Assembly: GCA_964036195.1 (NCBI GenBank)
Contig: OZ038450.1
Location: 27,778,794 to 27,842,793, forward strand
Origin: Sphaerolaimus hirsutus
Taxonomy: Eukaryota; Nematoda; Chromadorea; Monhysterida; Sphaerolaimidae
Length of the DNA stretch: 64,000 nucleotides
Direction: 5' to 3'
Position numbers and translations under genes: made by a program. Under the pieces are notes generated by a model. It saw only the letters and a program-made list of their open reading frames with translations. It was not told the DNA's origin and searched no databases. Positions 23,850 to 53,707 of this stretch are shown one piece after another. How positions within the stretch are numbered: the first letter of the stretch is position 1; each line of letters begins with the position of its first letter.

Positions 23850-23934
23850 CACTCCCGAAACTAGAATAAAAATTAAATTTAATTTAATTTTATCTCAGCC
23901 AATCTCGGCAAATTGATGTGAAACAAAATCAAAA

Positions 23935-27684: not shown

Positions 27685-27702
27685 GACTGTGAGAAATTCA
27701 TG

Positions 27703-27705
27703 CTA
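27703..27705 (-). other. In-frame amber stop within integrase
   Basis: TAG separates GRRCLT from HEFLTV, with the same frame on both sides and no other lesion nearby. It is either a single inactivating point mutation or a read-through site. Because env follows in the same frame, a stop here would also limit unspliced expression of env. Confidence 0.9.
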
Positions 27706-30700
27706 TGTGAGACAACGTCGTCCGCATGCTTTTTTGAGCAAGCGTTTGACTAAACCGACCATGCGTTCGTACACGCTGCCCTGCCAAGGACTATTGGCTG
27801 TGATAAAATGCGATTTTACGTCCGGTAGCATTTTGACGCAATTTTTGAATGCTGGGGCATTGTCGGACCAAATTGTGTCCGGCATGCCTCGACGTGAAAT
27901 AAAACGATTTAGAGCCATAATTGTGTCGGCTGTCGAGACACTATTAGTTGACTCTAAATGGATGGCGCGTGTACTGAAGCATGTTAGCAACAAAATGTGT
28001 TGATTGTGACGGGTTCCGTTCTGTGAATAAACTAACGGTCCCATATAATCAATGCCAATATGTTGAAATGGCTTGATTTGTGATTGAGTTCGAGTGACAG
28101 GTAATGTGTGAAAATCGGGTAATGTGAATGGACCTCCTTCCGCTTTGCGACATGTGACACATTTTCGCAAAATTTTTGCAACTACCTGCTTGGCGCTTGA
28201 CAACCAGCAGTGTTCGCGTAAATCTGCTAAAGTGTGAAGCATGCCACTGTGACCAGCAAGCTCATGAAAATGAGTAACCACTAGCGTTGTTAACCACCCG
28301 GTCTTTGGCAGGTAGTAAAACAACGAAGGGTTTCTGTGTTCTTTGTGAGATACACGCGTGACACAATATAATAAATTATTCCACGCGTCCCATTTGAGCA
28401 TGTGGTGTTTGCCAAGTTGCGCTTGTGAAATGCAACTGGCACATTCCTCTGCCTGTGAAATGCGCAATACATGTCTAAATGCTTCGTTTAAATCAGCTTG
28501 TGTGATGGGTTTTGATAAATATTCGCTTTCGCGCTTTGCAGCCTTGTGCATGGAGCGATTTAGCCAATATGTTTTGACACGAAGCAGGTATACGACAGTA
28601 CGCAACAATTTTGACAGTGTTGAAAATCGTCGAATGTCGATTTCGAATGGATTTGAAGGGATGTGACGTTGTCGACTTTCGACAAACGGATTTTGAGGAG
28701 TGACATTTTGTGACAAATTGGGGTCCAAGTTGACAGGTACTTGCTGTGCAAGAGCATTAGCTGGTTGTGAATCAGGCTGTGAAACGGGCTGTGAAGTTAC
28801 TGCTCCAGCGTATAAAGGTCGACTGATGTGAATGTCGCCTTTCGCAAGTTCTTCAGTGACAGGTTGCGCTTGATATTGCGAAATGTCAAGCATGGTTGAT
28901 GTGAGAGGTTCAGCTAAAAATGTGGGTCCGGTGAACCACATTGTTTCGATCATTAGTTGATCAAAAGTACAACCCCGCGACGCGATGTCGGCTGGGTTGT
29001 CTTTTGTAGCAACCTTGCAAATTTGAATGCAATGTTTTGACATTAGTGAATGGATTTTTGTGACCCGATTGTTGACAAAAGTAGCCAGCGGCTTTGCTGT
29101 ATACAGCCAGCCGATGACAACTGTACTATCGGTCCAGAGGAAATTACTGTGAATTTTCCATCCACCCAGCTCAACGAGTTCATGATGTAAATAATTGATG
29201 AGCTGTGCACCAATTGTGACACCTAGCAATTCCAAGCGTGTGATTGTGAGGGGTTGACCTTGTTTTGACGGAAGTGGGGCTAGTTTTGTGCGAGCTGTGA
29301 GAAAACCACTAAAATATCGGTCATCTTCATAACCGTATTCGTCGGGTGAAATCGCTTTTTGACGCAAATAAGCGCAAATGGCGTATCCATCTTTTGAGGC
29401 ATCGCAAAACACATGTAATTCTAATGGTCGTGTGACGGCTTTGACATCGATGCCAAAAGAATGAAATGAGCGCGGGAATTTGATTTGACTTATGGACGAG
29501 AGATGTCGTTTCAAATCGTCCAGTAAGTCATCCGCCTCTGGGTCTTCGATGAGTTCATCCCAGGTTGTGATATTGCACCTTTGAATTATTTGTGACACGC
29601 GAAATTTCAACCGAAATAACGCGGGTGCTGTGACGCCAATAGGATCGTACGTTGAAGCCAGCAATTTGTTTAAATTGCGGCGTGTGGCTGTGACAATGAG
29701 CGTGAAATCCTTTTTGGGAGCTGGCACTGCAATGGTGTCTTCAATGTGATCGTAAACAAGACCCATTACTTTGATGTATTGTGACTTTTTCGGGTTGAGG
29801 TCATCGGGTTTGATTTTTTCCGAGATCATAGGCGAATTTGTCATCCATTCGCGCATGTTGAAATTTGCTCTGGCAAAAACAGCTTTAATTAAACGATAGA
29901 GTTGTATTGCATATTTGTCATCATCTACGCTGATAACTAAATTATCAACGTAAATGCTGTTGAGCAACAGCTCCAGTTTCATTCGTTCATTGGTTTCAGC
30001 GGGATGCATGTGAGCTAATTCCTCTTCTAGGTGATATTTGATGACAGTTGACAAAATGGATGGACTGCATGTGAGGCCAAACAGCACCCTTGTGAATTGC
30101 ATCATTTGAATATTGTCTTCATGTGACGGAATGGTGTCATCACGCAGCCAGTAAAATTTTGTGAAAGCGCGTGATTTTGGGTGAAGAGCAATTTGTAAAA
30201 ATGCTTTTTCAATATCTGCTAATAACACCACTTTTCCGGCTCTGAAGCGAAGCATTAATCCGAGCGCCAGGGGTGTGAGAACTGGGCCTCGAAATAAGCA
30301 ATTATTGAGACTTGGCTTGCCTGCAGAACCATCATACACTATTCGACATGTTGTCGATCTGCCAGGTGTGAGGACAGGTTGGTGAGGTAAGATGTGTTCT
30401 TGCAAACCATCTTGTGAACCATAGACGGGTTCTATGACCCCCTTGTGAAGTTGATCTGAGATGACTTTCGCGTATGTAGCGAATAAATCGGGATCTTTTC
30501 GAAACCGTTTCAACAGTGACAGAAAGCGACGAAATGCTTCTGCATTGTTAGTTGGCAATTCTTGAATGGTTGATTTGAATGGCCAATCCACGCTATAGCG
30601 ACCAGTTTCTGGATCAAGAGTAATTGATTCCAGAATTAACTGTTCAGCTATGTCGTCATCATGTGATAAGGGATCATCTGTGATACCTATTGACTCGAGA

Positions 30701-33654: not shown

Positions 33655-33915
33655 AGCAAAGTTCGATTGATTTATTGCTTATTAGCAAAGTGGTAGCTAG
33701 CTGTGAACGAAATAAAATAATAAAATAAATATTTTGTTTCTTGTGACTTGTACTTGTAAAATCGTAAGTATTTATGCACGCGCTACTAACGATTTTGCGT
33801 CCAAAACCGTATTACCGTAACCCCGTGCGTGTGACTCAGGCTGTGAAAAACAATTTCCAATGAAATTTCGCGCGAGACGACTTAATTAGAGTGACCAATT
33901 AGTTTTAATTAGTCA
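33655..33915 (-). other. Untranslated leader of the BEL/Pao element
   Basis: This lies between the primer binding site and the gag ATG. On the sense strand it carries TCACA words and no ORF. A splice donor for env or the overlapping ORF would be expected here or early in gag, but I could not fix one. Confidence 0.5.
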
Positions 33916-33932: not shown

Positions 33933-35030
33933 TGTAAAATAATACGGAACTTGTTGAAGTGACTTGTGAACCAGCTCCTATTCCTAACCGAGGAAGAGGA
34001 CAAATGTGAACAAGTGTAAGTTGACGTGAAGCGTCGTCTCTAGTTGACGTTCCGTTATTTTATCAAATGTGATTAGTTGAGTTGAAGTGAATTGACGTGA
34101 GTTAGTGTGAAGCAAATTTAGATTGTTTACCAAAGGTTTTGACGAACGTTTTTATTTAGACAATTAAATACAAAGAAATAAATGTAAATAAAATATATAT
34201 AAAAATATACGTAAACAAAGGAATTAATTTACAACTAAATTAATTACTTAAATAAAACGTAAAAGAAGCTCTAATTACCGGAGAAATAAGGCAATTTAAA
34301 GAAGGCACTTAATTACGACAAAAGGCGAGAATTAAGTGACGCGGTTGTGAATAAAGCACCTCAAACAGCGCAGGTGTGAAATAAAGCACTGAGGTGACTT
34401 AAAGCACCAAGTGTTAAACTTAGCACCAAAAACAAGCGACTTAATAAAGTGACTACGGCGCTTATTTAGATCCTAGGAAGAGATTCGTGTGAGGTTGACG
34501 AGGTTGCAAACACTGCCGATTCTAGCTGTGAAATCGGCTTTTAAGGGCCAGACCGATGGCGATTGGTTTGGCGCCAATCGGTCGGCTCTAATCTCCGATT
34601 TTTACCCAACATTTCCAATTGTGAAAGTTCAATCCTTGCCCGCTCGCTTCCCCGATGAAAAGCGAGCTAAACTGGCAAGATAGTGAAAATGTGAGCCAAG
34701 CCAGACAGCATTTGAAATGGCGCGCGGGCCCGGCCCCCCACTCGGGGCGGGCCCGCCGCTTAACATAAACATGACGGCGTATATGCGTGCTGCTTGTCAA
34801 GGAAATGTGGCGGAATGTGAGCAATGACTAAGATCTAAATATGTGAACAATGTGAAGCACACGTTGTAAACAACATCGCTTGAGATATTAAATGGCGAAT
34901 GTGAAGATGTTAAGTAAAGGAATGTGAATATGAATGAAATCTTGATAAGTTGAATTAATTAAATATAAAAGAGAACATAAGAACGTTAACTTAAATATTA
35001 TAGGTTTTTACATTTTACGATAATGTTACA
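33933..35030 (-). repeat. 5' LTR of the BEL/Pao element
   Basis: It pairs with 22753-23849 at about 97-98% identity by eye. The differences include a small cluster near 34913-34925. It should contain the promoter and polyadenylation signals, but I could not place a TATA box with confidence. Confidence 0.93.
34724..34757. promoter_or_regulatory. GC-rich LTR hairpin (right copy)
   Basis: This is identical to the stem in the 3' LTR. In the 5' LTR it could be transcribed into the leader if transcription starts upstream of it. Confidence 0.55.
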
Positions 35031-35059
35031 CAACTGGGATTTCAAAACATTTCTGGCGA

Positions 35060-39249: not shown

Positions 39250-39719
39250 CCCATTGTGTTGTTTTTGTCTCTTGGAGCAGCATTGACAACTGGGATTTCA
39301 GGGTTAGTGAAACAGGTGCTGTGAACCCAATTGGGTCATATGCTGACACCAATAATTTATTCAAGTTTCATCTGGTTGGTGTTGTGATGCTGTCAATTTG
39401 CAATTTTGGTGTTGATATTGCCAGCATGTCCATTTGGTGATTTTATTTCATGCCCATTACTGCGACAATTTTATTCACCTTTGGACTCCTGTCGTTTTCT
39501 GCTATTTCATTCATGACTGATCTGGAGTTTGACAGCCATTCCTTCATGTTCATAGAACATTGGTTAAATAAAGCTTTGACTTTGTAATATAGTTCTAAAG
39601 CTCCAACTTCATTTGTGACACTCATGATGAAGTTATTGACGTAAATGTTGTTTATTATCATCGCCAACTGGTTTCATTCCCCTTCATTTTCTTCATATTC
39701 ATTCATGTTGTTTATTGTC
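39250..39719 (-). pseudogene. BEL/Pao pol fragment, downstream half
   Basis: This continues the RT fragment after the LINE insertion: NNIYVNNFIMSV near 39640, NMKEWLSNSR near 39540, and a piece of the post-RT region near 39340. Stop codons interrupt it. It carries the same YVNN change at the catalytic box as copy 1 at the left edge of the window. Confidence 0.85.
39714..39719. repeat. Target-site duplication of the LINE (left)
   Basis: ATTGTC here and at 52875-52880. The left flank also contains TTCATTCATG, similar to the 3' tail TTCATTCATTC, so the true duplication could be longer and imperfect. Confidence 0.75.
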
Positions 39720-39753
39720 CCCAGGGTATCGCTCTGGTGGTTGTTTAGGGAGC

Positions 39754-39816
39754 GGGTAGTTGAGTCGACTACCCTTGACGACTGTCGGAAGTCCAACAAG
39801 GACCGACAGTCGTCAA
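39754..39816 (+). promoter_or_regulatory. Two tandem hairpins at the LINE 5' end
   Basis: GGGTAGT/ACTACCC (39754-39760 and 39768-39774, 7-base loop) is followed immediately by the perfect 14-bp stem TTGACGACTGTCGG/CCGACAGTCGTCAA (39775-39788 and 39803-39816, 14-base loop). They sit about 35 bases into the element. A 5' ribozyme or internal promoter/packaging structure is possible. I could not thread an HDV-type pseudoknot with confidence. Confidence 0.65.
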
Positions 39817-40109
39817 AAGTTAGCAAACTAGCTGACTATGCCGAATGGGCACTGAGCCAAAAAATCTTGGCTCGACCCAAAAAGGGTCTTTCACTAATAC
39901 TAAAATTACTGTACCACATTCCAATCATTGAAAGAGGACATATGATCTTTATAATCGATGTCCTTAAGTCCAATCGCACTAAACTGCTGTGCAACGGGGT
40001 GCGGCTAGACATTTTCAAAAAATTGGCACGATGCCAAATAATCAAAATCGCTATTCACATTCGCAGATTTACGCTGGGATCGTTTCTAATACTTATTTAT
40101 ACTAACACT

Positions 40110-43100
40110 ATGGGTGATAAACCCAAACGAAAGACTGGTCGGGCGCGCTCAGTGAAAAATCCTACTGAATCATTTGAAGAGCCGCTACCTGACGATAGCG
40201 ACGCTGCCGAAATTCTGAAGATAAACGATGAAGCAAAGTTTGAGGTAACTTTATCATGGGTAATCTTGGTTCACCGTAACATTTACATACTAAGGTGTGC
40301 ATTGATATCGATATTTCGAAAAATAAATTTTGGTATGTATATTAATTACGGTCGATACACTCTAAAAAATACATTTGCGTATGTTATGTCCAAAAATACC
40401 ATATATATGCAGGAAGCCATCAAGGACATGGCGGAGTCGGAGAAGACCGCCCTGAGAATAGTGTGGAAGAAGACAAAACTGGCAAAAACTCGCTTGTACA
40501 GCACGACTCCGCATCCGTCCAGACTGGAGCCGATCAGGTATATTTACACTATCTTAAAAATGTTTCGGTTCTTAAAAAATACTCTAAAAATGAACTGCGG
40601 AAGTATAGCAGTTGGGGGTCATGTATCAGATTTGATATTCATTGGATCGATAAATGTATTCAATATTTCAAGTGATGAGAAAGCTACAAAGATAGACATT
40701 TTAAAAACTTTTTTGGAAAGTATGGGTGAGATTTTAAAAAATGGCAAACACACACAAAAACGTTTAGAAATCTACAGTACCTTATGGGGGGTTACACATA
40801 TAGAAAAGCACTGTGTTTCTAAGCGCTTTCGCGATGGGGGAAACTACGAAAAATCTGAAAAGTATACTAAATCGAATATATATACCATGACAGATAGATT
40901 GTCCCTACATTACAGAGATGTGGCAGAAGAAGAACAATCTCCCGAACTGGGGGCAGGCGTTGGGTCGAAAAACGTTGATCACGATCTAGCTGAAGAAACG
41001 TTTGCGGAGGTGTTCCCGCCGGCGCAACCCATTACGCTAACAAACACAAAAAGGGGTGCTGAAAACTCATCGGATAAAAACGAGGAGAATCTGTCGACCG
41101 GTACGTTAGTATGTACTTCATATGGGCTAGTGAAAATGGGGAAAGTTGTTGAATGTTCTTCAACTTCGAAAACAAAAAATAACAAAATGTTCTTTGTTGA
41201 GTGTAGCATAGGCACTCATGCAGCGTCACGCATGGTGACTTACTTATGTTCTAAAAAATGCATCAAAAATAGTGCCCAGTCGGTTGTATCGGAAATCAAT
41301 ACAAATGCGGAAATCTATACCAGTTCAGGGGGGGTTCCCATAGACCCTTATCTGGTGCACAACTACGAGAATGTAATACAATTTTATATGTCCACAAAAC
41401 ACCATATTCTATTTCTAACTACAGGCGCTGAATCTAGCAGCCTACTGCAAAAGCAACGCATGGCAGCCCTTGAAAAATCGAACCGGCGTTTGGGGGGTAT
41501 GAATTTGAAAGCCGATCTGGAAACGTCGAATAACCCACCGTTGACGATGGAGGAACTGAACAAACACCTGAGTGAGCTTTTAGTTGACTGGGGTCTTTTA
41601 ATGTACAACAAAAAAAAATCTGTGATTGTAAAAAAAAACATATATAGTATAAATCAGAAAAATAGTATTATGATGGAAAATGATGCTGTTAGGGGGGCAG
41701 TATGTGAAATAAATGCATCACAAACGTTTTTATTGGAAAAAATGGGGATATTATCTGAAACTGGTTCTAATTCCATTAAAAATGGGAGCGAATGCGAATG
41801 TGAATGTGAATATAAACGCGATAAAATTATCTTACACTCAGATCCATCGGCCCCCGATAAAAACTATTTCTTCAACTGGAATAGCTATGCTGCAGAGCTA
41901 AGGCGTCAATATTCTGTGGGTGGCGCACCGTTCAAACCGGATATTATGATGTCCGAGATCCAAAACTGCATCAAGGGCATGGACAGCACCAACAATGTGT
42001 GCCGGGCGGTGATGATGTTGAGCCATCTTGTGCACCACACCGCGTCAGAGCTAAGCCTGGTGACAAAATGCAATGAACAGGTACATAGGTGTTTTGGTAA
42101 AATGTTATCTTTTTGGGATATTCCACATGTTATTTTCTGTTGGTTAAAAGGTCAAATTTACAGCGGAGAGGGACTATACATATTTAAAACACCACTTAGC
42201 CACCAGATCGTGCTAACAAATTTGGTAAAAACATCAGCAATAACTAAATATACGAGCTATGATGAGTATAAAATGGGTACAAACATCTACATAGTGGGGG
42301 TTTCTGTTAACATATCTTACAAAATCCCAGCAAATTATAATATACTATTTTATAACACGCAGCTAGAGCTGCTGCTTGCTGATTTTGCCAGCGGTATAAA
42401 GGAGGACTGCGATGGTGTGTACACGCGTCTGGAAGCCATGGAGGGTGATATTACCATGCTGATAGATGATACCATCAAAATCGATGATAAACTGGAGGAG
42501 AATGCTTCCACGGTAAATTGGGGTTGCCTTTTACCGGTTGTGAATACACATCAGCTAAACTCAGGGGGTACGCTGAACTCTAAAAATTATCTTAGCCTAG
42601 TGATAAAATTAGAGCTAAATAAAATCGATAATTCATTTAAACGGTGGTTAGAGGTTATGTTAGACATTGATAGGGGAGGTGTGCACAGTGTTTTTGATGT
42701 CTCACACATGCATATAAAATTACAGTGCGTCACGAAGCGAGATGCGCTCCTGGCCAACATCACCGAGATCCGCGACAGAATCACAGCGATCGAGCAGCGA
42801 CCGGCCAGCTTTGCCGCCGTGGCAAGTAGCGGCGCTGTCGCGGCCACGGGAAGCAAACGCAAAACTGGCACGGCGCCAGATGCCACACAAGCAAAGCGCC
42901 TGAAGAATTGCGACGTGCCTTCGATGCAAAATGCCCCAAAGGTTAATGGTTCTACTTTCTGTTATCTGGGAGACATACACATACATTCGCACACCTCACG
43001 ATTAAATGTAAAAAAAGGTGATTCACCAATATGTAGAGATTTCAACGATATTTATGTGGGTATTATAGAAGGGGCGAGCAAAGCTTTTATCTCGCACAAT

Positions 43101-46100
43101 ATCACCCCATGTCACAATATCATCTTCCCCATGTCACAGACTGACGCCATTCGGCTTGGCGCTGTGCCAAAGGAATTTCGCGGTAGAGATGGGAAATTAG
43201 ATCTACTGGTGACACTGACCGACCCACTGGACATCCTCGGCTACATGTTCCCGTTAAATGTCATGAGTGGTGGGAAGAAATTTCCATGCATTGCGCTGGC
43301 TATAATGATGGTGAGTTTGCGGATGTCTCGCCACAAAATCCACAAAATCTATGAAACGTTTAATGACTTTCTTGTGTTGTTCAGTACTACTGAAAATATT
43401 TTACAGGGGGAATTATCAATACGCCGTTGGCTATGTTTCCTAGAATTTCCTATCATATCCAATATGAGGTGTTTCTCAAATATTTTAAAAAACCTGTTTT
43501 ATTCAAAAACTATAAATACGGTAATATTTTTAAAAAAGATGGAAACAACAGTGTCTCCTATACTGTCGACTAGTAGAACTAAAAACAGAAATTCAATTTA
43601 TAAACAACACCCTCAGGCTGAAGCCAAGATCGCTGGCAGTGTGGACTTAGAAAACGCAGTGTATGCCTGCACAGCCTTCTTTGTCAAGCACAACGGGGTC
43701 AATTTCGACAGAAAATATAACGACTTTGTGGGCAGATTGAATGCAGCATGGAGCCAGATTTGGCAAGAGCACTTGGCACAGGGAACCGCTGTCATTGGCC
43801 CCAAATGGTTCAATTGTGGGACGGGGCCTTTCGAACATCTGTACAGCTCAATTGAAGAAGCCAAAAATTCGGTGGCGTATTGGACACTCAAAAAAATTGT
43901 GAAAAACGCTGTTAAGAACAATCCCCAATTCCGGTTAGTCTGTTGTAGGGATATATGGTTGGGGTTTACATCTAGCCAAGTCAAGTGGATATATGAGACT
44001 ATTTAAAAAAAATATACTTTAAAAAAACATATTTAAAAAAAACATATTCTAAAAAAACACATTTAAAAAAACTGTATTTTAAAACAAAATACTTTTTTAA
44101 AATTGAACTTTACTTGTTATCCAAGCTGTGTTTATGCAAAAGTAGATAAAATCACGCTACATAAACAATATGTGATAGGCCAAAATATCTCGTGTGTCGA
44201 TATTTCACATTACCGCACCTATTTATACAGTCAGCTGTTGTGGCAGACCGGAAAGGAGCGGAACGGAAACGATGTGATCGACAATCCGCGATTTATCCGC
44301 TGCACCGGCTCCTTCCCAAACAGCGGTTTCAAGGGTGCATTGATGTGCGGTGCCGACCGGCTAGCGTCAGAAGTTAGTTTTGACATGGGGGGTAACATAT
44401 TTCACATCTTTGTCACATATGGGATCTATGCAGCTCCTGTAAATAAAAACGGGGATCGAGCTCTAGAAATCATAGATAAACCACTTGAAAACTACGGGGC
44501 TAAATTAAATACGTACAGATATAATATTAAACGACCATTTTATCTCATATCCTTTCTCCAGGCGGCTCTGGGTACAATGGTTGGGCCCCACTTCACTGCC
44601 CCATACATGAATTTGTGGGGCGAATGTCTAATGGAGGTCAGAGCCAGCATTGGGCAGGAATACGCGTATCGGATGCGAGATGGCAAAGGGTTATGGGTCA
44701 CCGCACCGGAATATGGTATTTTTGATGAATATGACCGCAAGGGGCACTGGAAGCTAAACGACCCTACTAACAGCGTGAGGGGGGTCTTCAATATGCTGCG
44801 AGACCCGAACAAGGTGGGTCTATGCATGTGCGCAGTCTTGGCATTTCGCCAATTTAGGCAGGTATGCCAGGCATGTAAACCTCGAAATACGTTAAAAATT
44901 AAGACAAATGAATGTGTGCGTAACATAAGAAAATATACAATCATCATACGTCTAATACTAAGAATCTCGGATAAGAAGATTTTAGCTCTGCTTATACATA
45001 ATATCAGATTCATCTTATTCACTCAGAGTCGACACGCTAGAGGCGGCGGTCCACCGTACCAACCCAGGGGGAGTGGTATGTCGGGAAGAGGCGCGGCTCT
45101 ATCCACTGCGCAGCCGAACCAATCCTTTTTTCCGGCTCAAAACGACAACTACAGGGGGCGTGGCCAGTATGGGCGTGGCGGCTACCGTGGCCGTGTGAGC
45201 GTCTCAGCGACGCCTATGTCTGCTTTTCTAAAGGCCAGGGTTGAGACCGCGGAACCGGCAATTGATTCCGATGATGAGGATGTACAGGCTGTGAGTGACC
45301 CCGCGTTGAAAGTGCAGGCTGCACAAATAGAAGGTATGCGTGGGTATTGGACTTTTTGCGTTAAAGGGGAAGAAATGTTGAGAAGGTTGAAAACAGGTTC
45401 GCATCTGCAAAAAAACTTAGACGAGGTATCTCAAAAAGATTCTCAAAAAATGTGCCAATCACAGTTGTACCATGTACAACTACTCTACTCAAAAATGTAC
45501 CAGATACTTATGTACCAGATACTTATGTACCTAGATAAAAACTCAGTTAACATCAAAATATCCCACCCAGGCGATCCCGAAGTGGCGGCTCTGAAAAAGC
45601 GTGTTGACCAGTTGCTGAACTATATCGGGGAAAACAAGCCCGATGTGCCGGTCAAACCTGGAGACAACGCTGTGACTACATCTAGAGCCGCCGCTGGTGT
45701 CCAGCAGCATGTACCCCCGCCGTGCATGCTGGACGACGGTGACTCTGAAGGCGAATACTGCGACAATCTTGTGACCCCAGCGCCAAATAATGAGGACAAT
45801 TTGAATGAAGGCACCATTTTCGAGGAAAACGATTCCGATCTCGGTTGGTTACAAATGTCATGGTTTACTCGTCTCTATAATATTCATCCCGATACACCAG
45901 ACTATTCAAAAAAGAGCCAGATAGTTTTTGTAACTAAGTACAACATAAACAAGTGTTGGGTTACACACCATGTGTTAGCATATGTAAATCTAGGAGGATC
46001 ATACTGGCATGCAGCCAAACACACACTGCACGAAATTTACAAAACTAGTCACTGTATTATATCAGTATATAGTAAATATATTTTCATAGCGAGGCTTTAT

Positions 46101-46364
46101 ACTTCGGCGAAGACTCTCATATCATTTTCAGAGTCACCACCCATCGCTTCAAGAGCGACAAGTGCAACTGCAGCGCCCCCTGCCCAGGCTAGTGCGGTTC
46201 CTGTGCAATTAACAATTGGTTTATCAGAAACAAGCGACAAAACGGCTCAACCCATCTCTCAGGTATGTGGGGCCCTATCTATCTACAGAAGCGACAATCG
46301 TGGGGGCGTGGTGCTGGCTCCCGCAAACCATGTGGACTTTGATACACTGACGCAAAAAAATTAG
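40110..46364 (+). CDS. LINE first gene: 14 exon-like blocks, candidate nucleocapsid-like ORF1 protein
   Basis: ATG at 40110 starts MGDKPKRKTGRARS. GC-richer blocks alternate with AT-rich GT...AG segments. Introns: 40245-40412, 40538-40915, 41101-41424, 41572-41841, 42081-42362, 42513-42725, 42942-43139, 43311-43616, 43934-44230, 44373-44561, 44814-45026, 45334-45570, 45844-46131. Phases match at every junction. Exons sum to 2892 nt, 963 residues, ending at TAG 46362. Seen in the exon protein: an acidic N-terminus, heptad-like helices (blocks 5-7), a globular middle (blocks 8-11), an RG-rich segment (NDNYRGRGQYGRGGYRGR in block 12), a second helix, and an acidic Pro/Ala-rich end. The order suggests an RNA-binding structural protein. 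I recognise no family. Twelve of thirteen introns contain no in-frame stop, so a longer unspliced product is also possible. Confidence 0.65.
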
Positions 46365-46391
46365 TCCAAAATTGCAAAATTTTTCAGAAAT

Positions 46392-48746
46392 TTGATCGAA
46401 AAAAGTAAAATTCCAGAGCAAAAATTACTCAGAGACCCAGCCTTTGGAAACGTTTTACTGGCACCCATTTCTGTTGTCAAAAAACTGCGAATGTGCCCCC
46501 CATTTGGCCCCATGACGGGATATCGCACATCGGATGGGAAGGCAATGTATGGGGAAATTCCGGACTTTGAAGTCAATGTAGCACCGGTCGTGATGTTCAA
46601 CAACTATCCCGATACACGATCCCTGATCATGACATTTGAAAATACCCCAAATACCCAGAAAAATCAAAATACCCAAAATATGCAAAAATACCCGAAATAC
46701 CCAAAATACCAAAAATACCCAAAAATACCCAAAAATACCCAAAAATACCCAAAATACCCAAAAATACTCAAAAATACCCAAAATACCCAAAATACTCAAA
46801 ATACCCAAAATACTAATATTACAAAAAATTCCCAAATAACCCAAAATTTAACCAAATTTATCAATATGTTCTCAAATACCAAGGGGGGAAACACTTGCCA
46901 AATCCAAGAAACAGCACAAGAAACAGCACTAGTGATGTTCACGTACCATCCCGATATACGATTCCGGATTTCGACACTAGAAAATCACCAAAATACCCAA
47001 AATACCCAAAATACCCAAAATACTCATAATACCCACAATACCCAGAATACTCAAAATACCCGAAATACCCAAAATACCAAAAATTACCAGAATACCCAAA
47101 AAATCACCACAACACGTTTTTACACCCAAAATACACACAATATTCGAACTATTAGCAATATTGAAAATACAGGAGACGTGGAACACACTCAAAATACCCA
47201 AAATACTCAAAATACCCAAATTACCCAAAATATTCAAAATACCCATTATACCCAAAATACCCAAAATACCCTAAATACCCTAAATACTCAAAATACCCAT
47301 TATACCCAAAATACCAAAAATACCCAAAATACCCAAAATACTCAAAATACCCAAAATACCAAAAATACCCAAAATACCCAAAATACCCTAAATATTCAAA
47401 ATACGGGAAAAAGTCTACTAATTCGGAAAATATCCAGAATGTTTCGAAATATCAAAAATAGAAAAACTTTCCACAATACGAAATATTTCCGCCATATTAC
47501 AAATGTGCTTATATATATTACTAAACTACTTATTGTATTGCAAACAATCGCCACTGTTTTATATATCTTTCCAATGCTAATCTATCCCACCATAGAAAAG
47601 TTGTATTTTGTTGAACCTTACCAGACCAGTGATTATTTCTTCACGATGCTAATCACGGGTGACAGTACCAGTGTAAATCTGCCGACTGAATTGAATAGAC
47701 AAGGATTGGCTCAGTCGCTGAATCTGATAATTCACACAACCTATACTGTCTTCACGGGGCAACGATTGCCCTGTATCGGGACGCTACTAAAAAGTGTTGA
47801 AATTTCAAAAACATTTGACCTGGTGCTTGTGAGGGCGGTACTGGATGTGGCAGATTTAGAGCACAGCCTTGCTCTACACAGGGAGGGTGTATCGATTCGC
47901 AACAATCTACTACACCCTGTCTTTGAAATTCTGCTAAAAATTCTGAGATCTGGAAAATTGAAAATGCAGCCGTATGGGCGAATTGTGCTGAGTCTCATAG
48001 GGCCAACTTTGCCAGATTACAATGCATCCGTGTGGTGTGAAGAATTGGCGTCTGAAGTTTTCCAATTTATGCTGAATGTAGAGAAAGACTTGAAAGAATT
48101 TTTGGAAATCAGGGCGCGCAAGGTGGTGGTTCTGCCACTAATGGAGTTCTGCCTCACTGAATATGAGCGAATGGATGTATCATCGCCTGTACAAGCGATG
48201 GTGCATCTAATCTCTCGAGACGGACTCCATACATCTAGATCGGGCGAGAAGGTGATAGCGCACTTGACGCTGCAGATATTACGCGCCATGTGGGTTCATA
48301 TACCTGTGCTGTGTCATATATCATCTAAATATGGAAAACACTTAAGTACAAAGGTATCTATCGTGGAAATCAGTCAAACAGTGCTTCGATATCTAGATGA
48401 TATAAGGCATGGTGTATCGAAAAATCTCTATCAGCCCCTCAATAAAAATAATAAACGCTCAGGCTGCAGCAACGCGCAAGCGCCAAAAGGAGCGCCGTCG
48501 CGCCCAACCAACCAATCAAAGATCCATAACTTCTTTCATGGGGGATCGCTGCCCGAAGTGAATTATTGCACCGCCGCCTCACAATTTCGCTTTACCATGT
48601 CCGATGACATATTTTGTAGCTGTATCATGTTTGACGGCGCAATCTGTGAGGATTATCAATATGTTAGGTACTTGGACAATATCAATAGTAGTACAAAAGA
48701 AGAAGAACCGGTTCTGATAATCCCTACAGACAAACCACTTTATTAA
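46392..48746 (+). CDS. LINE middle ORF, unknown function, with in-frame 9-bp satellite
   Basis: The open frame is in the same register as the flanking genes. It has a protein-like start (PEQKLLRDPAFGNVLLAPIS, to about 46600), then a satellite encoding Asn-Thr-Gln repeats (46632-47402), then a clearly protein-like block of about 210 residues from 47623 (after CTTACCAG, acceptor-like) to 48251, mostly helical with FEILLKILRSGKLKMQPYGR. A last block (48435-48746) ends at TAA. The satellite region and 48252-48434 may be introns (GT...AG, phase 0 on the second). The true start is unclear: the frame opens at a TTG and no ATG precedes the first block. I recognise no domain. Confidence 0.5.
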   Translation: MIEKSKIPEQKLLRDPAFGNVLLAPISVVKKLRMCPPFGPMTGYRTSDGKAMYGEIPDFEVNVAPVVMFNNYPDTRSLIMTFENTPNTQKNQNTQNMQKYPKYPKYQKYPKIPKNTQKYPKYPKILKNTQNTQNTQNTQNTNITKNSQITQNLTKFINMFSNTKGGNTCQIQETAQETALVMFTYHPDIRFRISTLENHQNTQNTQNTQNTHNTHNTQNTQNTRNTQNTKNYQNTQKITTTRFYTQNTHNIRTISNIENTGDVEHTQNTQNTQNTQITQNIQNTHYTQNTQNTLNTLNTQNTHYTQNTKNTQNTQNTQNTQNTKNTQNTQNTLNIQNTGKSLLIRKISRMFRNIKNRKTFHNTKYFRHITNVLIYITKLLIVLQTIATVLYIFPMLIYPTIEKLYFVEPYQTSDYFFTMLITGDSTSVNLPTELNRQGLAQSLNLIIHTTYTVFTGQRLPCIGTLLKSVEISKTFDLVLVRAVLDVADLEHSLALHREGVSIRNNLLHPVFEILLKILRSGKLKMQPYGRIVLSLIGPTLPDYNASVWCEELASEVFQFMLNVEKDLKEFLEIRARKVVVLPLMEFCLTEYERMDVSSPVQAMVHLISRDGLHTSRSGEKVIAHLTLQILRAMWVHIPVLCHISSKYGKHLSTKVSIVEISQTVLRYLDDIRHGVSKNLYQPLNKNNKRSGCSNAQAPKGAPSRPTNQSKIHNFFHGGSLPEVNYCTAASQFRFTMSDDIFCSCIMFDGAICEDYQYVRYLDNINSSTKEEEPVLIIPTDKPLY
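46632..47402 (+). repeat. AATACCCAA 9-bp satellite, in frame
   Basis: The 9-mer AATACCCAA (Asn-Thr-Gln) and variants run in two blocks, 46632-46850 and 46985-47402. The insert between them (46860-46985) includes a diverged copy of the sequence preceding the first block (ATGTTC...ATCCCGATA...), a duplication of about 70 bp. Because the unit is a multiple of three, the frame is kept throughout. Confidence 0.85.
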
Positions 48747-48821
48747 GATTCGCTAGGCCAGTATAGCAGCCATAAATATGATAACGAGGTAAAAGATCAA
48801 CAGTGTGTCAACAATGATTCT

Positions 48822-49442
48822 ATGGTAAAGGAAATTACGTTCATGCCAACAGAATATTTATGGATGCTACTTGAAATAATTATATATATCGCGTGCGGAA
48901 GATATACACACAGCTGGGTGATTTATTGGTGTATGGTGATTTCAAACCATTATGGATGTGGAACTATGTGTTGTTCAGATAGGTTTGGACGCTGGCCGGA
49001 GGAACGGCCGTGGTATAATTGTTCAGAAGGCTTATTGCTGGGGCTGTGTACATACAGAAACAAATTACTGATATTCTTGAGACAAACAAAGAGAAGGGTT
49101 TGTCTCAAATGGGAGGAAATCTCTCTTGACATTGAACATGCAAAAAACTTTTCAAAAACACTCAAAACCAAATACATGCCGTATGGGCTAGAAGGAGTCC
49201 GGTCTGCAGTACACATACTCATGCAATATTGTCTAGAGATTTACACCTTTTCTACCTCGCTTACTAATAATGACTTTAAATACCCAATGCGCTTTTTCTG
49301 CACTCCAGTTTTTCGAGTGTCTTCGTGGCTTTGCTGTTTGAGCGCATGTTACTTTGCCCGTACGTTACTTGCACTTTCAAATAAAAATAATCATTGGTGT
49401 GTGATTGGATTACTATTTTATTTTATCACTCCAGTTTCAGCC
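48822..49442 (+). other. Region upstream of the LINE endonuclease-RT start, possible intron
   Basis: The frame is open but AT-rich and not protein-like. A donor-like GTAAAA lies at 48789. A strong acceptor (TATTTTATCACTCCAGTTTCAG) ends at 49440, two bases before the endonuclease-RT ATG at 49443. I read it as an intron or leader that lets a spliced message start at that ATG. Confidence 0.5.
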
Positions 49443-52400
49443 ATGAGCACTAACACCGGTGTGTTAGATTCCGTCACATCAACTATTTCATTACTCTCCC
49501 TGTGCGTATTGTATCAAAATACACGATGTTTAAGAGGTAATCTTCAGGCATTATTAGACACTATTCACATTACTGGGGCTGAGATTTTATGTTTTACAGA
49601 AACACAGTTTAGGAATGCAGCTGAATGTTGCAATATAGGGGGGTACACATCCGCACACATATTCAAAACAGGCTCTGAGACAGGTGGAATTTCAATCTAC
49701 CTGAGAAAGGGGTTGAAATACTCCGTAACCAAGGTATCCGATACGGTAACCAATAATATACTTGTTGTGAAAGTTTCTAATCATCCAATACTAGACAGTA
49801 TACATTCGTGTGCCAACAAAATGGGGCGCAAATTGAACCTTGTGGTGGTATATATGGAAAATAATAGTAAGGTAACAAAGTCAGGCGAACAAAGACGGCT
49901 CAATGCTAACATCATTGCTGAGCTGGAGATGATTGTTAGAAAGGGAAGGTCTCAAAACGAGGAAACCTTAATTATGGGTGACTTTAATGGACATATTGGC
50001 AATGATGAGCTGGGGATAGAAGGCAACACTATTGACATTAATACAAATGGCAAACTTATATGTGAATTCATGACACACACTGGTCTTGGAGTGCTAAATA
50101 ATCAACTAGAAGGATTGTGGACCTACGAACGAAAGAATGCTAAATCAGCAATAGATTTATGCTTCGCAGACGGATCGATGGCTCTAACAAAAGGTGTCAT
50201 TGACGCTTACAGTGAGTACAGCAGCATACAATCTGATCATAATGCTATCGTTATGACATTCGACTATATGATGCCATGTGTGGTTGAAAAGACAAGACTG
50301 CTAAGACCAAAGAGTGACATAGAAGAACTTGCATTTCAGAATGCAATACGGGGTACTAGATGTCGGACGTACACAGAGATGGTAGAAACCATCACCAAAG
50401 CAGCCACTGTTCCTGTGTCAACTGGCAAACCAAGAAAGCCGATAAAAGATATGCAATTGCAAGGAAAGAAAATAGCTAAATTAAGGCGGAAAATCAAGAG
50501 ATGCAGTGATAACTTGGAGGGGCTACATTTAGCTGCAGAACTAAAATCAGAAAGAAAACAATTGAGTAAAATGAAAAGTTTTGATTCAAGAATTTCAAAA
50601 GAACGTGCAATAGCACAGTTGGCGAAAAAGCCGTCTGTGACACTAACTGACCTTTATAAGAAAGTAAATGCAATCAGAAATGGAGGAAAGAACATTGTAC
50701 ACACAATAAAGGACGACATGGGTAAAGAAGTTACGACAAAGGACGACATGAAAAAAGAACTGGAAAAGGCATGGGGGGTGGTAATAACCCCAAATCCAGG
50801 TGCAGACCTTGCAGACACGTATTCAGTTCAACAGGTGAAAAGCACCAGCAAACAAATTGATAAATTGTCCTGTAGAATTTCTATAATTGAGGTTGAGAAA
50901 GCAATAATAAATCTGAAAAACAACAAATCATCTGGGACAACCTCTGTCTACCACGAACATCTAAAACTTCTGGAAGAAAATCACCAATCGACACTCGTAA
51001 ACATCTTCAACAGCTGGTTTGAGGGTGCGGAGATACCAGATGATGCTGCCATGTGTAAAATGATACTTTTGCACAAAAAGGGTAACAAAAGTGACCTGCG
51101 TAACTATCGGACACTAGGGTTATCCTGCAATATAAAAAAGGTATATATGTCAATACTCAACCGACGTTTAATTAGATGGCTCGAAGATACAAATGCCCTG
51201 ACAGAAATGCAGGGTGGATTCAGACCAAATAGAAGGACTTTGGACAACATCCAAATACTAAAAACATGTTACAACTATGCGTGTGCCAACGGCAATGCAT
51301 TTGTAACATGCTTTGTGGATGCTGTAAAGGCATTTGACAGAGTGGATCGCGACAAACTGTGGTATAAGATGCGAACCATGGGTATCCCTGATATCCTGGT
51401 GGGGGCTATATCCAATGTCTACTTAAAAACACGGGCGATAATGACTTATGGGGGATATGAGAGTGATGTTCTGCAATACCCCATTGGAGTGGCACAGGGA
51501 TGTGCACTTAGCCCGACATTATACGCTATATACTTACACGACCTGGCGGACACATTACTCCGCACGGGGATGGGAGCTAAATGTGGCTGGCAACAAGACA
51601 AAATTCCAGCCTTATTCTTTGCTGACGATATAGTGTTACTAGCTAGTAAAGACTCAGAACTACAAATGCTGCTAGATATATTTAGCCAATGGGCCTGGAC
51701 GTGGAGTGTCTCAATCAATGCTAGTAAAAGTGAGGTGCTTAGATGGGGTGAAAACACTATACCAAAGAAAAAGTGGTACATCGGATCGGGAGATCCAGCA
51801 CTGAAGAACAAAGCAGTGCTCAATGAAACCGACTCGCTGAGATACTTGGGGGTAAGGATTAACAGAGGACGCGATCCATTTAAAGATCATAAGGAAGCAT
51901 GTGTGACCAAAATGAGGCAACTAAGCACACTAGCCATCTCTGCGGCGAGGAATACGATATCTCCGTTATATAATGGTAAAATGACATGGAAAGCCTATGT
52001 TGAACCTGGGAGTATGTATGGAGTAGAAGTAACGGGATTAGAAAAAAAGGATCTTATAGAAATGGACAAGATATATATGCAAACAATGAAAAAAATAATT
52101 TCGCTGCCAAACAGTGCAAGCAATGCGGCGCTAACACGGGACTTGGATGGGATTCTACCATCGGACAAATACAGGCAGTTAGTGCTTACAAACGACCATT
52201 ACATGCATCATATAGATAAGAGACGGTGGCTGTCGAGAGCACTAGAGGAAGACAAAAAGCTATATGATAATCAAAGAGTATCAGTAATTAACACAAATAA
52301 CGGATTAGTTAAAGAATGTAAAAACTCCATGAATTGGAAAATTGATACGTCACAACTAAGAACAGCCCTGATCAAAAAAAAGGTGCACTTATACAGAAGA

Positions 52401-52766
52401 GCTGTTATTATACAAGCAATGCAGGGCCAAAGTGTTCTCAGAAATAGAGCCGATGATAACATCGAAGTAAAAGGAATTCACTACAATGAAAGAATGTGGT
52501 TTGCAGCACGACAAAACAGTTTGCGGCTATGGGACGGTAAGTTAAAGAAGATATGCAAACATTGCACAACAAAGTACGTGAAAATACCATTAAATACTGT
52601 ACACGTCATGTACATCTGTAAGGGGAATGAGAGCGACAGAAATATGCTGGCCACGACACAGTGCACAGTCCCATGTGGATGGAGGCAGGGACTTTTACAG
52701 TCAAATGTATGTCATGCACATCGCATACAGTGTGATAAAATGATACGTAAATGTTTATATGGCTAG
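49443..52766 (+). CDS. LINE endonuclease-reverse transcriptase (ORF2 protein)
   Basis: 1107 residues from ATG 49443. The N-terminal APE-type endonuclease has TETQ (52-55), GDFNGH (179-184) and SDHNAIV (264-270), the metal- and phosphate-binding signatures. The RT has QGGFRPNR (590-597), the first catalytic Asp in FVDAVKAFDRV (624-634), GVAQGCALSP (682-691) and FADD (726-729). Near the C-terminus a CKHC...H...C pattern resembles the zinc finger of many LINEs. All key residues are intact and there is no stop, so an active enzyme is plausible. It would nick the target and copy the element RNA in place. I do not assign the clade. The start was chosen because the reading frame becomes protein-like there and a splice acceptor precedes it. 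Confidence 0.95.
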   Translation: MSTNTGVLDSVTSTISLLSLCVLYQNTRCLRGNLQALLDTIHITGAEILCFTETQFRNAAECCNIGGYTSAHIFKTGSETGGISIYLRKGLKYSVTKVSDTVTNNILVVKVSNHPILDSIHSCANKMGRKLNLVVVYMENNSKVTKSGEQRRLNANIIAELEMIVRKGRSQNEETLIMGDFNGHIGNDELGIEGNTIDINTNGKLICEFMTHTGLGVLNNQLEGLWTYERKNAKSAIDLCFADGSMALTKGVIDAYSEYSSIQSDHNAIVMTFDYMMPCVVEKTRLLRPKSDIEELAFQNAIRGTRCRTYTEMVETITKAATVPVSTGKPRKPIKDMQLQGKKIAKLRRKIKRCSDNLEGLHLAAELKSERKQLSKMKSFDSRISKERAIAQLAKKPSVTLTDLYKKVNAIRNGGKNIVHTIKDDMGKEVTTKDDMKKELEKAWGVVITPNPGADLADTYSVQQVKSTSKQIDKLSCRISIIEVEKAIINLKNNKSSGTTSVYHEHLKLLEENHQSTLVNIFNSWFEGAEIPDDAAMCKMILLHKKGNKSDLRNYRTLGLSCNIKKVYMSILNRRLIRWLEDTNALTEMQGGFRPNRRTLDNIQILKTCYNYACANGNAFVTCFVDAVKAFDRVDRDKLWYKMRTMGIPDILVGAISNVYLKTRAIMTYGGYESDVLQYPIGVAQGCALSPTLYAIYLHDLADTLLRTGMGAKCGWQQDKIPALFFADDIVLLASKDSELQMLLDIFSQWAWTWSVSINASKSEVLRWGENTIPKKKWYIGSGDPALKNKAVLNETDSLRYLGVRINRGRDPFKDHKEACVTKMRQLSTLAISAARNTISPLYNGKMTWKAYVEPGSMYGVEVTGLEKKDLIEMDKIYMQTMKKIISLPNSASNAALTRDLDGILPSDKYRQLVLTNDHYMHHIDKRRWLSRALEEDKKLYDNQRVSVINTNNGLVKECKNSMNWKIDTSQLRTALIKKKVHLYRRAVIIQAMQGQSVLRNRADDNIEVKGIHYNERMWFAARQNSLRLWDGKLKKICKHCTTKYVKIPLNTVHVMYICKGNESDRNMLATTQCTVPCGWRQGLLQSNVCHAHRIQCDKMIRKCLYG

Positions 52767-52874
52767 CACAAGCAGAAACAGATAACAACTATTAGACTGG
52801 TAGGTGTACATTGGGAGAGGAGCGTAACCTCGTAAGAGGTAGGGCTCCAGATCTCGTTTTTTCTTCATTCATTC
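52767..52874 (+). promoter_or_regulatory. LINE 3' UTR with GTAA-loop hairpin and TTCATTC tail
   Basis: ACCTC-GTAA-GAGGT (52827-52840) forms a 5-bp stem with a GNRA tetraloop. It is enclosed by GGAGC/GCTCC (52819-52823 and 52844-52848). The element ends CTCGTTTTTTC then TTCATTCATTC. In several LINE clades a 3' stem-loop is what the RT recognises, and a similar role is inferred. Confidence 0.65.
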
Positions 52875-52880
52875 ATTGTC

Positions 52881-53707
52881 ACATTAAAATGGTATTTTAT
52901 GACTGCTCCCAAAATTGTTGGGCTGCAGACAAGTCTAAACAGTACGCATTTAAAACGAAGTACTATTAAGTTATTTTCAGTTACTGGTTTTGAGGCATCT
53001 TTCAGCCAGAAAAATCGTGTGTAGTCTCTAGCTTGGTCATGCAATCCTATTTGCAAAAATGCCTTTTCAATATTGGCAATTAATGCTAGATCGCCTGCCC
53101 TGAACCTCAGGAGTAGGCCCAGTGCTAATGGTGTTGTAATTGGTCCTCTAAAAAGGCACTCGTTGAAACTGGGCTTACCTGCCGACCCATCGTACACAAT
53201 TCTGCATGATGTTGATTTGCCCGGCATGATTACTGGCTGGAGTGGCAGGTAATGAATCCCCTTGTTGTCTGTTTTGTCGTCACAGATCTCAATTATTCCC
53301 TTTTATAGTTGGTTGTCCAAAACTTTCCGGTATTGTTCGAATAAGTTTGGATCTTTGTTGAATCTTCTTATCAGTGATTTAAACTGCACCAAGGCTTCTG
53401 CTTTTCCCGTGGGCAGGTCACTGATACTCTCTTTATACGGCCAGTCAATATAGTATTGTTTGTTGTTGTCGTTGAATTTTATGCTATTTATTATCATCTC
53501 CTCTGCAATGTTGTCATCAATTGCATAGGGGTCATCAGTGATTCCCACTGCTTCTAGACTGTGAAATTGTCGTAGTGTTTCCTTTCCTATGGCCACTATG
53601 GCTACTTTTTGATGATTTTTTGTTGGTTCAGTTAAGCTTGAACTACAAGTGAAGTTACAGGCATGATCCATAGTTGCAGAATGTACAGCTACCAAAATCA
53701 AAGCCAA
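52881..53707 (-). pseudogene. BEL/Pao pol fragment, upstream half (protease-RT linker and RT start)
   Basis: Two open pieces (53303-53707 and 52881-53227) match the intact element from about residue 955 to 1210: ETLRQFHSLEAVGITDDP, then STSCRIVYDGSAGKP and the RT start with FLQIGLHD. They are separated by stop codons near 53228-53302. The fragment runs on across the LINE into 39719-39250. Confidence 0.88.

Follow-up and report, generated by a model that had tools for sequence, protein, structure and literature searches.

Predicted spliceosomal introns kept readable within ORF1 of a LINE clade of the nematode Sphaerolaimus hirsutus

Because LINEs replicate by copying RNA, they normally lose introns, and what their template RNA has to do is a question usually approached with reporter assays only. 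Among other retroelements, Penelope-like elements with introns occur in hosts besides bdelloid rotifers, and retroviruses use unspliced RNA both as genome and as mRNA for reverse transcriptase (RT), while spliced RNA yields another protein. For bdelloids, the accessible text of one study describes a spliceosomal intron in the ORF of one divergent Pen5 copy of a Penelope-like element in Adineta vaga, together with copies of intron-containing host genes and N-rich in-frame inserts in Penelope-like ORFs (PMC3846280). Exitrons, as presented in the accessible part of their description, are introns inside coding exons that have lengths divisible by three (3n) and no stop codons, are GC-rich and show many synonymous changes (PMC4494720). 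Spliced integrated copies of L1 (SpIREs) have been reported as well, and the part of that report available states that L1 splicing inhibits retrotransposition and calls such copies dead ends (PMC5860796). In the Jockey superfamily, the esterase type of ORF1 (type IV) is attributed to only two vertebrate groups in the available text of a further study, where the word "intron" has 0 occurrences (PMC4120745).

The LINE copy described here is 13.15 kb long and lies at 39720..52874 of the window (the 64,000-nucleotide stretch of contig OZ038450.1 that was analysed), on the + strand like all features below, nested within a BEL/Pao-like copy. The extent proposed in the initial annotation was borne out: a target-site duplication, ATTGTC, flanks the element on the left (39714..39719) and, following a (TTCA)n-type tail, on the right (52875..52880). 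A BEL-like paralogue without the interruption, at window positions 1-1075, matches the flanks and represents a paralogous empty site. Alignment of the leader shows the copy to be 5'-truncated by ~80 nt compared with its relatives. The 6-bp duplication, the paralogous empty site and the lack of terminal repeats are those of an APE-type LINE, and self-comparison of the copy found an internal satellite as its sole repeat. An AP-like endonuclease (EN) and an RT share one ORF (49441..52766; RVT_1 E 3.4e-29, Exo_endo_phos_2 9.4e-11, Exo_endo_phos 5.4e-6). A search by RT recovered 41 relatives in the species' own 348-Mb genome, in each of which EN-RT aligns without a break, with -9 to 57 additional nt, and hence has no intron; a more remote family (L043-L045) is built in the same way. 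An Rfam search of 39300-53300 gave no match up to E 1, and neither scans of viral and prokaryotic contigs nor a protein search with the unspliced ORF1 returned a match. A protein search with the RT yielded remote relatives only (24 among the matches listed, 21-34% identity), and the two protein searches did not reach another species carrying this LINE. For the COX1 of the host, at least 120 matches were obtained; among those listed, the ones with a species name (mostly insects, with an amphipod and the priapulid Halicryptus) have 66-70% identity, and the two highest-scoring have 90% and 81%.

Within ORF1, AT-rich segments (GC 0.27-0.38 in the window copy) separate the coding blocks. Exon 1 (40110..40244) begins with the ATG at 40110 and is followed by introns 1 (40245..40412, 168 nt), 2 (40538..40915, 378 nt), 3 (41101..41424, 324 nt), 4 (41572..41841, 270 nt), 5 (42081..42362, 282 nt), 6 (42513..42725, 213 nt), 7 (42942..43139, 198 nt) and 8 (43311..43616, 306 nt), all stop-free. 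Exon 9 (43617..43933), which has 54-96% amino-acid identity in 7/7 relatives, precedes intron 9 (43934..44230, 297 nt), and this intron holds three in-frame TAA codons (44004, 44034 and 44064), as had been noted for one of the thirteen. Introns 10 (44373..44561, 189 nt), 11 (44814..45026, 213 nt), 12 (45334..45570, 237 nt; its donor is supported in L018 only) and 13 (45844..46131, 288 nt) are again stop-free, and exon 14 with its continuation (46132..46640) includes an in-frame TAG at 46362. The previously given total of 3066 nt (1022 codons) for twelve stop-free introns was reproduced when intron 11 starts at 44814 and intron 12 at 45334; a version with shorter introns 11 and 12 (12 introns, 2955 nt, 980 codons) was used for the GC range above and for the shuffle, codon-structure, border-transfer, relative and divergence counts below.

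The coding blocks do share a single frame between 39720 and 52766, as first proposed: from 39645 to 52766 the only stops of the exon frame are those at 44004, 44034, 44064, 46362, 48744 and 52764, compared with 300 and 290 stops in the other two + frames (39720-52766). The expectation of dozens of stops in such AT-rich DNA also held, as 2000 dinucleotide shuffles of the 12 introns carried 66.0 +- 7.6 stops (minimum 42), against 0 in frame in the actual introns, whose two remaining frames hold 79 and 81. Splicing phases agree and all intron lengths are 3n, although these are not independent observations, since with all exons in one frame each implies the other, and we count them once. An end of the first gene at 46362, on the other hand, was not upheld. 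All five relatives that have an intact frame across this part (L037+L016, L038, L039, L041 and L042) are open at that position, and around 48744 the frame is open in the relatives whose sequence was retrieved up to there (L037+L016, L039 and L041), so that both stops look like peculiarities of the window copy. In L037+L016, a single stop-free frame of 4,268 codons starts in the 5' leader and continues until RT ends, between flanks that are both stop-dense. The genome search printed an open frame of "4,200 codons or more" at 10/42 places, a figure from a printout that disagreed with the DNA for the exons of host CCT genes and that was checked in full against DNA only for L037+L016.

ORF1 thus reads on past 46362, through an insert with a (AATACCCAA)n satellite (46641..47600) that is open in frame and missing from L039, L042 and L049, into an esterase-like block (47625..48320). 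This satellite stretch was considered as a GT-AG intron and rejected, as no border was found. The block carries GDS and DGLH motifs, and GDS and DxxH, which we take to be the catalytic motifs of an SGNH/GDSL esterase (ORF1 type IV), are invariant in 7/7 of its members; in L038/L041 the esterase-like block contains additional sequence that resembles a small inverted-repeat insertion. Pfam matches to the block were marginal (SGNH at E 0.058 in 2/7 members, Lipase_GDSL at 0.23 in 1/7), an unrelated family, C6_DPF, scoring better at 0.02 (2/7); the window member itself had no Pfam match, the block had no PDB match, and pieces of the unspliced ORF1 and the spliced protein had no match in Pfam. A non-conserved stretch before EN (48555..49440) is stop-free except for the TAA at 48744 (0 in-frame stops in 48747-49430) and may be one more intron, with its acceptor at TTTCAG 49440, for which no donor was found. 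A signal peptide before EN was also considered, but is probably a translated pyrimidine tract. At the other end, the 5' leader (39720..40109) is a structured RNA with covarying hairpins that is stop-free in the exon frame, and its codon positions give no sign of protein conservation.

As a test for splice-like borders in the window copy, change points in composition were sought between intron and exon midpoints while ignoring GT and AG, and were scored with generic splice weight matrices. Acceptors beat composition-matched shuffles (at four window widths, 0, 0, 1 and 6 of 2000 scored at least as high), and donors did so less strongly (49, 6, 30 and 5 of 2000); with a cruder segmentation, 6/3000 shuffles reached the score for acceptors and 816/3000 for donors. 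Protein alignments then served to carry the borders over to seven relatives, each border being counted wherever the alignment reaches it. The GT...AG borders reported for the AT-rich segments were confirmed by this comparison, with GT at 51/52 transferred donors and AG at 65/66 transferred acceptors (64 of them CAG), whereas the border dinucleotides occurred 0-8 times at each of 20 shifted positions. Introns are kept between neighbouring exons in 38/38 pairs compared by DNA and in 56/58 exon pairs compared by protein. Both exceptions are in one copy, L049, where exons 9, 10 and 11 are joined without a gap exactly at the predicted junctions; we read L049 as a natural copy of spliced RNA. A second candidate for a fused-exon copy (C7:11207488-11207898) has a separate exon 10 downstream, and the match was taken as alignment overrun.

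Divergence among copies separates exons from introns. In the seven relatives, 74/91 exon matches have at least 50% amino-acid identity (range 26-99%), while, apart from the close pairs L038/L041 and window copy/L018, relatives show no similarity (E 1e-3) in their same-numbered introns. The exon-versus-intron comparison of selection suggested in the initial annotation was made in four close pairs: exons are under purifying selection at the protein level by codon position (window copy versus L018,.052/.036/.154; L037+L016 versus L020+L035,.042/.031/.250), and in introns the three positions have changed to a similar extent (.233/.219/.243 and.260/.280/.284, respectively). The alternative that the AT-rich segments are plain coding sequence, namely fast-evolving protein linkers that are never spliced, is therefore highly improbable. 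It would account for the open frame and for a small excess of codon structure in the introns, which a stop-purged null reaches in 13/300 and 8/200 runs, and long repetitive in-frame inserts are described for bdelloid Penelope ORFs in the accessible text of PMC3846280. It does not fit the conserved borders, the unequal divergence of exons beside the near-equal divergence of introns, the lack of alignable intron sequence between subfamilies or the exact loss of two segments in L049. Conserved GT-AG, equal divergence at codon positions and this exact loss together indicate that the AT-rich segments are real spliceosomal introns, and the clade is accordingly described here as having an ORF1 predicted to be split by 13 or more such introns and an EN-RT without any.

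The relatives bear out that 3n length and lack of stops are conserved across copies. Frameshifted introns were looked for as a possible refutation, and 79/82 introns of the seven relatives stay 3n; 78/82 lack exon-frame stops, and the 82 introns (6954 codons) hold 22 in-frame stops, where the two alternative frames have 537 and 558. These features could in principle belong to the host, if in-frame stops were scarce in the introns of this genome generally, or if its genetic code were altered. We found no point in support of this, and it is the least credible explanation considered here, because in two host CCT genes 0/14 inter-exon gaps are stop-free and 4/14 in frame, and the 2091 codons read in the upstream frame include 106 stops (the gaps lie between profile-matched exons, so borders are approximate), and because the DNA flanking L037+L016 is stop-dense. 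The inter-exon gaps of the CCT genes are ordinary.

Openness has also persisted through substitution. Between the window copy and L018, 9/11 introns are stop-free in both despite 495 substitutions, for which 27.1 or 22.7 nonsense changes are expected, and their indels are 3n in 8/8 cases; this set is conditioned on openness, as it omits intron 4, which has a frameshift in L018, and intron 9, which contains stops in both copies. All 11 introns together have 629 substitutions and 34.4 or 28.9 expected nonsense changes. For L038 versus L041, 13/13 introns are open with 135 substitutions and 6/6 indels are 3n. Raw counts of 3n indels over all compared introns were 11/14, 3/3, 3/4 and 10/14 in the four close pairs. 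Intron 9 of L018, the nearest relative, likewise contains three in-frame stops, the first aligned with 44004, while the other introns of this lineage mostly stayed stop-free after divergence; hence, a fully unspliced frame is not needed at every step.

These patterns indicate that something requires intron-retaining RNA to remain translatable. Probably, unspliced RNA is both the template and the mRNA for EN-RT, and the introns are held 3n and stop-free for that reason. Full-length unspliced RNA would act as template for new copies, which would consequently keep their introns, and would also be translated. In the resulting long protein, peptides encoded by the introns would disrupt the ORF1 portion, but the C-terminal EN-RT would be intact and would work on the RNA that encodes it (cis preference), with working ORF1 protein supplied by spliced RNA. 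A stop or frameshift in an intron would separate EN-RT from the RNA that encodes it and serves as its template, and such copies would leave few descendants, whereas the amino acids encoded by introns would be without importance. Of the original proposal of a spliced ORF1 with an unspliced genome kept readable, the introns and the open frame thus stand, and the translation and template role of unspliced RNA are presumed. The intron 9 stops common to the window copy and L018 argue against the strictest form of unspliced translation. Nor does this model explain why spliced RNA, which would carry EN-RT in frame too, so rarely becomes template.

Alternatively, the mRNA may be fully or nearly fully spliced, and with 13 or more introns one or two would often be kept by error; 3n stop-free introns would then allow every partly spliced RNA to be translated as far as EN-RT and to escape nonsense-mediated decay, and the whole unspliced RNA need not be translated. 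We regard this as a possible but rather doubtful explanation. Each intron would be under its own constraint, which suits stops in intron 9 of one lineage while others stay open, and a copy without two introns exists. However, it does not itself explain why new copies almost always keep introns (38/38 pairs by DNA, 56/58 by protein), and it leaves the open 5' leader and the open stretch before EN (0 stops in 48747-49430) unaccounted for. Openness might instead serve RNA survival only, with surveillance removing intron-retaining RNA that has early stops and EN-RT acting in trans, so that protein made from the template is irrelevant. This predicts an identical sequence pattern, and is compatible with the intron 9 stops if decay there is weak, but is unlikely: the frame would need to be open only as far as the last intron, and in L037+L016 this frame carries on into EN-RT without an intervening stop, as predicted by translation of the template in cis.

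With unspliced RNA as both genome and messenger, we lean towards regarding the clade's introns as obligatorily translatable without coding, which would be a new constraint (3n, no stops, no amino-acid selection). A whole clade keeps many introns that selection visibly holds readable while their sequence drifts, leaving a natural, countable record of what template RNA needs (translation, probably in cis). Gene finders could call introns of this class coding, and protein searches could treat them as noise.

No LINE with readable introns was described in the titles or opening abstracts found, an absence that is weak as subscription literature was barely covered. Penelope-like elements differ from this LINE in RT class and in their GIY-YIG endonuclease, a family without a match at E 0.1 in the window LINE, which has an AP-type endonuclease instead and is thus not Penelope-like; introns held open in frame or 3n are not described for them in the accessible text of PMC3846280. 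The window LINE resembles CR1/L2 LINEs (type IV ORF1) in its AP endonuclease, RT and putative esterase-type ORF1 domain. L049 resembles SpIREs as a genomic copy of spliced LINE RNA, but in this clade ORF1 appears to need splicing and intron-keeping copies are the rule. Like exitrons, the introns are 3n (79/82 in relatives) and stop-free (78/82), and differ from them in low GC (0.27-0.38) and the lack of a clear codon-position bias. Compared with retroviruses, this LINE has no LTR, and its introns, which stay readable, are located within the first gene.

The LINE at 39720-52874 (window, G000:C1:27778794-27842793; source genome, 348 Mb, that of an animal by its COX1) sits inside a minus-strand copy of a BEL/Pao-like element, with one ATTGTC repeat at each LINE end and an uninterrupted paralogue of both flanks at 1-1075 (93%-96% identity). 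A Pfam search detected an AP-type endonuclease and a reverse transcriptase (EN-RT). Upstream of these lies ORF1, in which 13 AT-rich segments (GC 0.27-0.38) separate 14 exon blocks (GC 0.47-0.61), and sequence comparison with relatives places an esterase-like block 3' of the ORF1 exon and intron blocks. A nine-base satellite within the LINE (AATACCCAA, 46641-47404) is open in the LINE frame and reads as Asn-Thr-Gln repeats. In the related copies L038 (~8510-8800) and L041 (~7290-7580 of the reverse complement), the esterase block carries an open, in-frame insert with inverted ends (TAGGGTTCAAACGG) and TTGGTAC on its flanks. A BEL/Pao-like element elsewhere in the window (23935-33678, minus strand) comprises two frames, a gag-pol-like one of 1991 aa and, after it, an env-like one of 1255 aa that includes a hydrophobic stretch; the 1.1-kb repeats on either side (22753-23851 and 33933-35032) are 97.5% identical.

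From 39645 to 52766, the exon frame, which is common to all exons and EN-RT, has only six stops (44004, 44034, 44064, 46362, 48744, and 52764); the other two plus-strand frames have 300 and 290 over 39720-52766. Twelve intron segments, measured with provisional borders of introns 11 and 12, contained no in-frame stop in 980 codons; the other frames held 79 and 81, and 2000 shuffles of these segments gave 66.0 ± 7.6 stops (lowest, 42). The 3066 nt reported for twelve stop-free introns in the initial annotation holds, being the sum obtained with corrected introns 11 and 12. Codon structure in the intron segments was small, with an excess of 12.8 per 1000 codons over a stop-purged null (matched by 8/200 null runs, and by 13/300 in another run set), compared with 106 for exons and 53 for RT windows of similar GC. 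As a control, exons of two host CCT genes were located by profile matching (borders approximate); of the 14 gaps separating them, none was stop-free and 4 were in frame, with 106 stops in 2091 codons. For the CCT exons of the control loci L047 and L048, the open-frame lengths that the genome search gave (e.g., 1050 and 708) disagree with the DNA.

Splice borders recur in related copies. Aligning the exon peptides to seven relatives (L037+L016, L038, L039, L040, L041, L042, and L018, the nearest relative) gave 91 exon matches of 26%-99% identity (≥50% in 74/91), through which the borders were transferred. Where the alignment reached the border, GT occurred at 51/52 donors and AG at 65/66 acceptors, compared with 0-8 at 20 control positions shifted by -24 to +24 nt. 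Without L018 and L041 (a near-duplicate of L038), the counts were 33/34 and 45/46. Permitting one residue of extrapolation gave GT at 64/67 donors and AG at 69/70 acceptors, and unlimited extrapolation gave 69/85 and 82/85. Many donor misses fall at introns 11 and 12, where the provisional donors had been placed too far downstream; the corrected intron-11 donor is GT in 5/6 relatives whose alignment reaches it and GC in the sixth, while the corrected intron-12 donor is supported in L018 only.

The constraint on the introns extends to these relatives, in which 79 of 82 introns are a multiple of three nucleotides long and 78 are stop-free, with 22 in-frame stops in 6954 codons versus 537 and 558 in the other frames. 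Excluding L018 and L041, 56/58 introns are stop-free (9 in-frame stops versus 376 and 393). The exceptions are introns 8 and 12 of L040 plus intron 4 of L018 (frameshifted), and intron 9 of L018. In L037+L016, which displays the design best, the initial 1.5 kb contains 36 stops, after which the frame stays open for 4,268 codons before stops become dense again.

At E 1e-3, similarity between same-numbered introns was confined to window/L018 and L038/L041, which are close pairs. In four pairs, divergence at first/second/third codon positions was.052/.036/.154,.012/.002/.032,.012/.004/.031, and.042/.031/.250 for exons, versus.233/.219/.243,.042/.045/.037,.042/.041/.039, and.260/.280/.284 for introns in the same order. 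These values indicate that exons are constrained by codon position and introns are not. Exons had no indels in any pair; intron indels were multiples of three in 11/14, 3/3, 3/4, and 10/14 cases, counts that include aligner-split gaps and frameshifted introns. Between the window copy and L018, the 9/11 introns open in both carry 495 substitutions, a count conditioned on openness, intron 9 being left out for its stops in both copies and intron 4 for its frameshift in L018, with 27.1 nonsense changes expected, or 22.7 with transitions doubled; all 8/8 indels there are multiples of three. For L038/L041 (13/13 introns), 135 substitutions predict 7.4 or 6.2 nonsense changes and none was seen, and indels were multiples of three in 6/6.

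A search of the same genome with the RT protein scored at least 42 places, comprising 41 relatives of 54%-98% identity besides the window copy; this is a lower bound, as scores were given to the best candidates only. EN-RT of each relative was a single continuous match, -9 to 57 nt beyond three per residue, and hence lacks an intron. Two RVT_1 matches of another length class (G000:C3:21887261 and C16:23421047) were reported in 4837-aa open frames, lengths being as printed by the search. At the L011/L040 locus (G000:C7:3665557-3681400), identity to the window copy is 92% in RT and only 72% in the esterase block, and the introns do not align with those of the window copy; ORF1 and ORF2 may have been exchanged between subfamilies. 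A DNA search with 40110-44000 returned 76 matches, of which one is the window copy and another L018 (82% over the full query length). The remaining 74 each lay for ≥0.80 of their length inside one predicted exon, with neighbouring exon pairs ≥114 nt apart in 38/38, and thus recovered the exon map independently.

Precise removal of introns is seen in one copy. The same genome was searched with residues 1-833 of the spliced ORF1 protein. Among the matches listed for exons 8-11, which take in those of L018 and the window copy, an intron was present in 14/14 (exons 8-9), 21/22 (9-10), and 21/22 (10-11) cases, and inserted lengths were multiples of three in 12/14, 18/21, and 20/21 (total, 50/56). 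The sole exception among these matches, L049 (C13:26524449-26525159), has exons 9, 10, and 11 fused precisely at the predicted junctions, without a gap. It retains gaps at exons 4-5, 5-6, 6-7, 7-8, 8-9, and 11-12, with no exon-frame stop in 6,501 nt. A distant LINE family (L043, L044, and L045; ORF1 matches 27%-53% identical) has one stop-free frame over 8.4-8.6 kb in each member. Length differences between blocks of L043 and L045 were multiples of three in 9/9, and ≤15 nt from block ends the two share a GT at the same offset in 8/10 cases and an AG in 8/10, raw counts that may include chance matches. This family retains the 10-11 gap in all three members and the 9-10 gap in both with exon 9 found; therefore, the L049 fusion is most simply read as an intron loss, of the kind that reverse transcription of partly spliced RNA would give.

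The 5' leader forms predicted hairpins with both-side changes in 11/48 pairs (six sequences), and its divergence is about equal at all codon positions. A conserved segment with covarying hairpins (39735-39905) has counterparts in L037, L038, L039, L040, and L018, and the leader had no match in Rfam. No in-frame stop interrupts the leader of the window copy or of 5/6 relatives read (L041 read partly); that of L018 contains one. An in-frame CTG near the 5' end, common to all five relatives with that end read, hints at initiation upstream of the ATG, no more.

We infer that the template for new copies would be unspliced RNA, since copies retain introns, and that working ORF1 protein would come from spliced RNA, since protein selection acts on ORF1 exons only. 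EN-RT is intron-free and in the exon frame; a ribosome reading unspliced RNA from its 5' end would therefore reach EN-RT only through introns that are all open. LINE cis preference is established for L1, and here it would make each successful copy proof that its own introns are readable. The sequences themselves show the introns, the constraint on them, and their exact removal; most likely, unspliced RNA is in addition translated and acts in cis as both template and EN-RT messenger. The main rivals are that intron retention is tolerated and that open introns protect the RNA from decay. The intron-9 stops common to the window copy and L018 favour an intron-by-intron constraint in that lineage; they, and the conditioning of the 495-substitution count, slightly lower the odds of the cis reading.

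Judged by titles and opening abstracts, we found no description of a LINE with open introns in the literature searched. A paper on giant transposons serves for comparison of size records (PMC6431247). The nearest known systems are intron-bearing Penelope elements (PMC3846280), exitrons (PMC4494720), SpIREs (PMC5860796), and esterase-type LINEs (PMC4120745).
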